A program made the translations under genes and the position numbers. Shown in pieces: positions 1 to 2,489 of a stretch of 64,000 bases of DNA. The first letter of the stretch is position 1. Every line of letters begins with the position of its first letter. The stretch is taken from assembly GCF_003063645.1 (NCBI RefSeq), contig NZ_NESJ01000013.1, positions 95,289-159,288 of the forward strand. The letters run 5' to 3'. Below the pieces are notes generated by a model. That model had not been told where the DNA came from and did not search any database. It was given only the letters and a program-made list of their open reading frames with translations. Source of the DNA: Limnohabitans sp. 2KL-51. GTDB lineage: Bacteria; Pseudomonadota; Gammaproteobacteria; Burkholderiales; Burkholderiaceae_C.

Positions 1-168
1 CGCTTTGATGCCGGCCAGCACGTTCAGCCGGGCGTCCAACTCGACCCTGTGGCGCTGACCATAGTCGAACGCCAAGGTTTCGATGCGCTCGTAACGTGAC
101 AAGGCATGGGCCAGGCAGGTGGTGGAGTCTTGGCCACCGGAAAACAGGACGAGGGCGGAGGTGTGCAT
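1..168 (-). CDS. queC: 7-cyano-7-deazaguanine synthase QueC (N-terminal part, runs off window)
   Basis: Reverse complement of 1-168 reads [66 protein letters not shown]-loop and FDYGQRH typical of QueC. Absent from the ORF track because it is truncated by the window edge. Confidence 0.87.
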
Positions 169-218: not shown

Positions 219-294
219 TTTGGAATGGGGCGGCGGCGGGCTCCTCATACTGCGGGTACACAGAAATCGTCGCCCGCCGCCGCCCCATTCCAAA
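219..294. repeat. Long hairpin element, copy 1 (23-bp perfect arms, 30-nt loop)
   Basis: TTTGGAATGGGGCGGCGGCGGGC (219-241) is perfectly complementary to 272-294; loop TCCTCATACTGCGGGTACACAGAAATCGTC. Confidence 0.9.
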
Positions 295-426
295 CGCTGG
301 TGGTGGTCGTCAGTTTTGCTGGTGTTGAACGCATTCCTTGCTGACAGTGACAACTGTCCTTGTTGGCAATAAACGTTGGCCGTATGGGCGTTAGGCCTCG
401 CAGCCCATGGTCTTGTGTGTGAGGGG

Positions 427-494
427 GGAGGGCGGGCCCAGGGTGACGATTTGGGCGTACCCCCGCCGTATGAGGAACCTTGGGCCCGCCCTCC
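427..494. repeat. Long hairpin element, copy 2 (inverted orientation, different stem, conserved loop)
   Basis: GGAGGGCGGGCCCAGGGT (427-444) pairs with ACCTTGGGCCCGCCCTCC (477-494), 17/18; reverse complement of loop TCCTCATACGGCGGGGGTACGCCCAAATCGTC closely matches the copy 1 loop. Confidence 0.88.
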
Positions 495-605: not shown

Positions 606-2489
606 GTGTCCCCCCACCTCCCCATCCTGCGCGAAGTTTTTGGCTACGACGCCTTTCGCGGCCCACAACAAGCCATCATCGACCACGTGGCCGCTGGGGG
701 CGATGCACTGGTACTCATGCCCACAGGTGGTGGCAAATCACTGTGCTACCAAATCCCGGCCATTGCGCGTCAGCGTGCAGGCCAAGGTATCACGGTGGTG
801 GTCTCGCCGCTGATCGCGCTGATGCACGACCAAGTGGGCGCGCTGCACGAAGCGGGTGTGAGCGCTGCGTTTCTCAACTCGACCCTGACCAGCGAAGAAT
901 CCAGCGACATCGAGCGCCGCCTGTTGCGCGGTGAGATCACGCTGCTGTATGCCGCACCCGAACGCGTGACCACCTCGCGTTTTCTGGCGCAAATGGACTC
1001 GCTGCAAGAGCGCGGGCTGCTCAGCCTGTTTGCCATCGACGAAGCGCATTGCGTGAGCCAGTGGGGCCACGACTTCCGGCCCGAGTACCGGGGCCTGTCG
1101 GTGCTGCACGAGCGCTACCCCAGCGTGCCGCGTGTGGCGCTCACGGCAACGGCCGATGCGCTCACGCGTGCCGACATCGTCGAACGGCTGCAGCTGGAAA
1201 GCGCCGAGCTGTTCATCAGCAGCTTTGACCGGCCCAACATCCGCTACACCATCGTCGAGAAGAAAGAAGCCAGCACCCAGCTGCTGCGCTTCATCGAGCG
1301 CGAGCACCCCGAAGAAGCGGGCGTGGTCTATTGCCAGTCGCGCAAGCGGGTCGAAGAAATCGCGGTCATGCTGTGCGAGTCGGGCATCCATGCGCTGCCT
1401 TACCACGCGGGCCTGGACGCCGCGGTGCGTCAGCGCCACCAAAACGAATTTTTGCGCGAAGACGGCGTGGTGATGGTCGCCACGGTGGCTTTTGGCATGG
1501 GCATCGACAAGCCGGATGTGCGCTTTGTGGCCCACCTGGACATGCCCAAGAACATCGAAGGCTATTACCAGGAAACTGGCCGCGCCGGGCGCGATGGCCT
1601 GGCTTCTGACGCGTGGATGGCCTATGGCCTGCAAGACGTGGTGAACCAGCGCCGCATGATCGACGAGAGCCCTGCAGGGGAAGAGTTCAAGCAGGTCATG
1701 CGCGGCAAGCTCGACGCCCTGCTGGGCCTAGCCGAGGCGACCGACTGCCGCCGTGTGCGCTTGTTGGGTTACTTCGGCGAGAGCTATGCCAGCCAAAAGG
1801 ACAGTGCGCAGGGCGTTTACATGCCGTTTTGCGGCAACTGCGACAACTGCCTACACCCGCCAGAGGTGTGGGACGGCACCGACGCGGCGCGCAAGCTGCT
1901 GTCCACCGTGTACCGAACCCACCAAAGCAGTGGCCACCACTTTGGCGCGGCCCACACCATGGACATCGTGCGGGGCAAGAAAACCGAGAAGGTGGTTCAG
2001 CGCGGCCACGAGAGCATCAGCACCTTTGGCCTGGGGGCCGACTACAGCGAGCAGCAACTGCGCGCCGTGATGCGCCAGCTGATCGCCATTGGCGCTTTGC
2101 ATGTGCACACCGAAGACGGCTTCAGCACCCTGCACCTGACCGAGCCGTCACGCGCCGTGCTCAAAGGCGACGTGCCCGTGCAATTGCGTGAGAGCACCAG
2201 CCAACGCAGCGACAAAAAAAGCCGCACCCGCAGCGGCCCAGCGCCTGCAGCGGCCAACCTGGGGCAAGACGCGATGGTGCGTTACATCAACCTCAAGGCC
2301 TGGCGCGCCGAAGTGGCCAAAGAACACAATCTGCCCGCGTATGTGATTTTTCATGACGCGACGCTGGCGGCCATTGCCGAGAGCGCCCCGCAAAGTTTGG
2401 GCGACCTGCAAGGCATTAGTGGGCTGGGTGTGAAGAAGCTCGAGGCCTATGGCGCGCAGGTGCTGCAGGTTTGCAATGGGGCGGTTTGA
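606..2489 (+). CDS. recQ: ATP-dependent DNA helicase RecQ (GTG start)
   Basis: Motifs [38 protein letters not shown], zinc-binding CGNCDNC, HRDC-like C-terminus. Confidence 0.95.

Follow-up and report, generated by a model that had tools for sequence, protein, structure and literature searches.

The divergent genes queC and recQ of Limnohabitans sp. 2KL-51 are separated by two hairpins with nearly identical loops and unrelated stems. What kind of element keeps its loop while its stems diverge and yet stay paired? The first-pass annotation had placed the pair at 219–494 of the window (the whole 64,000-nucleotide stretch of DNA that was analysed) and had considered a structured RNA, an ssDNA element or a transposable hairpin.

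Both hairpins are present as inverted repeats, in mutually inverted orientation, between the 5′ part of queC (1–168, minus strand; taken from the ORF list and named from the first-pass annotation and a motif) and the recQ helicase gene (606–2489, plus strand; from the ORF list, orthologues being retrieved with the N-terminal part). Hairpin A (219–294, GATTT-bearing strand minus) consists of 26-nt arms at 219–244 and 269–294 and a 24-nt loop (245–268, minus strand; GATTT-CTGTG-TACC-CGCAG-TATGA) that comprises an internal loop and a small inner stem. Its arms contain the perfect 23-bp stem reported at first, as 23 consecutive pairs followed by two mismatches and a C-G pair closing the loop. Hairpin B (422–499, GATTT-bearing strand plus) has 26-nt arms at 422–447 and 474–499, with 424–444 and 477–497 being 90% complementary, and a 26-nt loop (448–473, plus strand; GATTT-GGGCG-TACCCC-CGCC-GTATGA). 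This hairpin had been described at 427–494 with a stem of ~18 bp; the stem is in fact slightly longer, and nearly all copies of the family have one of ~26 bp. The two units, of 76–78 nt each, are separated by a 127-nt spacer (295–421). Their loops agree in inverted orientation (245–268 on the plus strand, 448–473 on the minus strand) and fall in the invariant columns of alignments A1 and A2. The loops are thus near-identical as first noted, although what is conserved is really an internal loop together with the small inner stem that it encloses.

The RNA folding z-scores on the better strand were −10.1 for hairpin A and −5.7 for hairpin B, and the DNA folding z-scores were −9.5 and −4.7, respectively, indicating that neither fold arose by chance. 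The covariance model R1 gave 87.8 bits (E = 1.6e-17) for hairpin A and 71.8 bits (E = 6.8e-14) for hairpin B, values that serve only as a consistency check because both were among the 30 training sequences of the model. Apart from these two matches, R1 gave just one in the window, a weak second-strand match to hairpin B.

A dispersed family with covarying stems

Approximately 215 distinct copies in 38 stem groups were gathered, mostly from loci fetched because they carry the motif and in many cases from metagenome assemblies. The near-invariant part of these copies is the internal loop C|GATTT...ATGA|G, which encloses an inner stem of 3–5 bp that is variable yet paired (GGCG/CGCC, TGCG/CGCA, CTGG/CCAG, ACGG/CCGT and others). 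The unit is 73–80 nt long with an outer stem of ~26 bp, in which pairing is 91–100% at positions 4–25, 87% at position 26 and 0.74 at position 27, reaching background by about position 30; positions 2 and 3, adjoining the loop, are often mismatched. The pattern C-GATTT-N6-22-ATGA-G was accompanied by a stem paired at ≥20 of 26 positions in 215 of its 242 occurrences in the fetched DNA, whereas seven control motifs yielded a stem in 0 of 38 candidates; it is this ratio, not the absolute number, that is informative, since most of the DNA was fetched because of the motif.

Covariation was evaluated on the GATTT strand of 30 diverse copies. Paired cells amounted to 94.8%, compared with 57.2% after shuffling and 35–48% when the arms were slid, and changes on both sides were seen at 27 of 29 pairs, with a covariation score of 0.89 vs. 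0.18 for shuffled copies. The compensatory divergence suspected from the two window hairpins holds over the ~215 copies, with covariation far above the shuffled and slid controls.

The family is dispersed in freshwater Comamonadaceae, and a scan of named genomes placed it in Limnohabitans, Rhodoferax, Polaromonas and other members of this family of bacteria. A genome-wide loop search and an Infernal covariance model had been proposed as checks, and both recovered further copies. The exact loop patterns occurred five times in the own genome (reversed control pattern, 0) and were present in 26 of 60 congeneric genomes. The covariance model matched in 58 of the 60 congeners, with 18 matches in the own genome and a maximum of 34 per genome; these counts are upper bounds because a hairpin can match on both strands, as did 15 of the 46 matches in one set, and at least 11 hairpins of the own genome were read directly. 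So many copies at unrelated sites are at odds with loop conservation by a single recent duplication. No earlier description of the family was found in the open-access literature, to which the search was confined.

Pattern matches in Clostridia, Bacillota and Prevotellaceae (e.g., L057, L082, L086, L099 and L118) had no stem and were set aside as chance occurrences. Two public contigs titled Akkermansia muciniphila (CALQKH020000013/4; L095 and L111) carry Limnohabitans-like recQ/queC and uvrA loci, and their title looks wrong.

Doublets, insertion sites and strand asymmetry

Neighbouring hairpins formed 72 distinct pairs, 38–295 nt apart. Of these, 68 were convergent and 4 divergent, and no tandem pair was seen; single hairpins also exist. 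Because the partners of a doublet often differ in loop or stem, we distinguish subfamilies A and B. The sites lie beside unrelated genes and are mostly intergenic. In one genome (G019), four near-identical doublets with sharp ends and different flanks occupy separate intergenic places within 11 kb, and their neighbours, by reading of the translations, are prolyl-oligopeptidase-like, haemolysin-type repeat, FMN-transferase-like and aspartokinase proteins. This recent duplication of whole doublets shows that the hairpins normally move as a pair. The argC/recX site is empty in most relatives, holds one hairpin in some and a doublet in one. Upstream of recQ, L183 is empty and L181 resembles a deletion between the two loops. 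No clear target-site duplication was seen at the G019 doublets or at argC/recX, where a weak 7-nt AAAACCG was the sole candidate, and the uvrA linkers were too divergent for this comparison; nor was any transposase gene found beside the hairpins. Many sites are old and common to several species, so that the evidence for present-day mobility is confined to a single lineage.

Enrichment near DNA-repair and helicase genes was considered and rejected: recQ, uvrA, uvrD and dbpA occur among the neighbours, but most sites do not fit. At L023, L106 and L124, hairpins combine arms from the two doublet partners, which may reflect inversion between the loops or metagenome chimeras. Several single hairpins of G019 (L338:141–213, L338:1335–1407, L354:16518–16590 and L363:341–414) are central in a larger palindrome with GGGGTCAGAGCAACATTAATTT ends.

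Four linker sites in a duplicated uvrA gene also hold hairpins, which keep the reading frame and encode GSSYGGGTPKSSP or DDFGVPPPYEEP. A protein-coding repeat was nevertheless rejected, since the hairpins are mostly intergenic elsewhere. The linker evidently tolerates palindromic inserts, as other species carry different palindromes at the same place (MDPRVKPEDD, SLAGKLLQN). In the own genome, the duplicated UvrA is very long (2162-aa open frame, L035:833–6499) and carries several linker inserts that derive from different palindromic repeats. In other species (L158, L157, L137 and L163), the same linker holds palindromes of the GGCATGGATCCTCGGGTCAAGCCCGAGGATGAC type or of the GCTTGCAGGCAAGCTCCTACAA type, which resembles Pseudomonas REPs.

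Non-Watson-Crick pairs bear on the question of which strand is structured. On the GATTT strand, 120 G.T events were counted vs. 39 A.C events (p about 1e-10). Copies collected by the other strand showed 43 G.T vs. 110 A.C events there, which is the same asymmetry, so this is not a scoring effect; the flank control went in the opposite direction. Moreover, the inner stem is fully paired solely on the GATTT strand. In uvrA copies whose mRNA corresponds to the opposite strand, the asymmetry persisted (25 vs. 10 events). We take this to mean that one DNA strand is under selection or is exposed, rather than that the hairpins function in mRNA, although strand-biased C-to-T change (deamination) may possibly account for part of it.

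These data bear directly on the view that the hairpins act in transcripts, through 3′-end protection, processing or antitermination, and that their covariation reflects selection on RNA. The strong covariation and wobble pairs would suit such a role, as would the tandem G.A pairs possible in the internal loop of the GATTT strand and the convergent doublet, which places a hairpin of good polarity last in a transcript from either side. However, copies lie between divergent, codirectional and convergent genes and in both orientations inside uvrA, the strand that keeps the wobble pairs does not change when the uvrA mRNA is the opposite one, and Rfam 15 gave no match above the gathering score, the sub-threshold matches being nearly all of microRNA type. 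We consider an RNA function unlikely. Because the wobble strand is the same whichever way uvrA is transcribed, an ssDNA or transposable hairpin is favoured over a structured mRNA among the kinds first considered.

Comparison with known palindromic repeats

The closest known kind is the REP/REPIN doublet of the GTAG superfamily (Bertels and Rainey, 2011, PMC3116915; Di Nocera, 2013, PMC3733652), which likewise consists of short palindromes in inverted, non-autonomous doublets, often of two subtypes, mostly intergenic and in some cases within UvrA genes; REP insertions in UvrABCD genes were noted earlier (PMC3733652). The present hairpins work like a REPIN yet fail REP membership. Published REPs have stems of 5–13 bp and a length of 21–65 nt (PMC3733652, PMC6006769), compared with ~26 bp and 73–80 nt here, and the conserved part of the hairpins lies in an apical internal loop instead of in the stem or a GTAG foot. 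When the feet of the 38 stem groups were inspected for GT[AG]G, none had it 5′ on the GATTT strand and 7 had it on the other side, vs. 3 in the control window. The arrangement is that of a REPIN, with two inverted units forming one replicative unit, but the units are not REPs, and no RAYT gene was found adjacent to them. The remark that this is "not an ordinary REP" is thus borne out by the absence of the foot, the short stem and the RAYT association alike.

Could an ordinary REP/REPIN nonetheless be mobilised by a resident REP-associated tyrosine transposase (RAYT)? The hairpins share with REPs their inverted heterodimers, insertion in UvrA linkers and a low-to-moderate copy number (PMC3733652), and a Y1 protein of ~235 aa is encoded in most hairpin-bearing genomes. 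This protein is equally present in congeners lacking exact-loop hairpins, although its presence alone cannot decide the matter because the covariance model finds the family in nearly all these genomes. No hairpin was found at the Y1 loci examined, and most of the RAYT loci inspected are bordered by a different palindrome, TAATTGGGGTCAGAtcCCAATTA. Together with the missing GT[AG]G foot and the stems of 26 bp instead of 5–13 bp, this leaves the resident RAYT unsupported as the mobiliser, and we judge its involvement improbable.

The GGGGTCAG palindromes occur in the same hosts, near a few hairpins and apparently also in uvrA linkers; they differ from the hairpins in sequence and, unlike them, flank the Y1/RAYT-like gene at most of the loci that were read. 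This ~235-aa gene is mostly single-copy and flanked by TAATTGGGGTCAGA..CCAATTA palindromes (L167, L257–L262, L264 and L265), a repeat that seems to encode KLGSDPNF-type inserts in uvrA.

Rickettsia palindromic elements are palindromic inserts that are tolerated in frame in protein genes and undergo sequence drift. The hairpins resemble them in these general features and are set apart by the short near-invariant loop and the inverted doublets. CGTC-tagged palindromes are also predominantly dimers without an associated transposase gene, with intragenic units reported, but they have stems of 8–9 bp, loops of 4–5 nt and a terminal unpaired CGTC (PMC3733652). The hairpins, with their ~26-bp stems, show no enrichment of CGTC at the foot, where one of the 38 stem groups had it on one side and none on the other; it does occur at the loop-stem junction of Limnohabitans copies.

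Stem turnover and a proposed mode of spread

The recQ site records a replacement of the stem. In L195, the stem is built from sequence that is plain upstream flank in L192 and others, where it lies beside a different stem. One of the two arms must have been remade to complement its partner, in one direction or the reverse. Template switching homogenises the arms of inverted repeats (PMC8604942, PMC7202029), and arm-to-arm switching could let stems diverge while staying paired. Such switching also underlies the least probable of the alternatives, in which the hairpins are old dispersed quasi-palindromes whose pairing is a mutational by-product of replication and not a selected structure: the L195/L192 replacement fits it, but it predicts neither the near-invariant internal loop and the sharp ~26-bp stem limit nor the doublet orientation and the recent copying of whole doublets. 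A stem formed by inverted duplication of the target was rejected, since recent copies in one genome have near-identical stems and a positional G-rich bias is common to the stems.

We favour, with a probability of roughly 60%, a non-autonomous, REPIN-like mobile doublet that is copied as a unit of ~200–300 bp and recognised through its loop. The element would comprise two hairpins of ~75 nt, as a rule one from each of subfamilies A and B, in inverted orientation on either side of a short spacer. In each hairpin, the conserved internal loop, with C-GATTT / ATGA-G on one strand, would separate the ~26-bp outer stem from the small inner one. An ssDNA-acting protein would recognise this loop in a single-stranded intermediate, as loop conservation suggests, and would need a stem of fixed length and free sequence. 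The stems would drift, and both selection and arm-to-arm template switching would contribute to restoring their pairing, so that each lineage and site would gain its own stem.

A second, unrelated hairpin family of like architecture, with a conserved loop of the form GCTCCGTGTCCCCC-inner stem-CTCCTCCTTTACCTGC, was found downstream of argC, at argC/recX, in Rhodoferax relatives (L280:1933; L283:1263/1452; L289:1278/1462; L296:651/844). It likewise forms inverted doublets with variable inner stems and unrelated outer stems; if confirmed genome-wide, it would make this a class and not a single family. We tentatively propose, at somewhat less than even odds, a previously undescribed class of Comamonadaceae mobile hairpin doublets with at least two unrelated families, in which the conserved internal loop would be recognised in ssDNA and the stem would be free in sequence as long as ~26 bp stayed paired. 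The defaults of RepRanger (palindromes up to 32 nt and loops up to 11 nt; PMC12306157) would miss such elements, and more may therefore exist.

Bacterial palindromic repeats known so far retain either a short stem or a tetranucleotide at the foot. In this family, almost nothing but the internal loop is kept, and the long stem shows covariation of the kind seen in structured RNAs, though the strand evidence favours DNA. The family thus offers a clean case for studying the shape recognition of ssDNA hairpins, the co-evolution of palindrome arms, and the enzyme responsible for the spread of REP-like elements that have no link to a RAYT.
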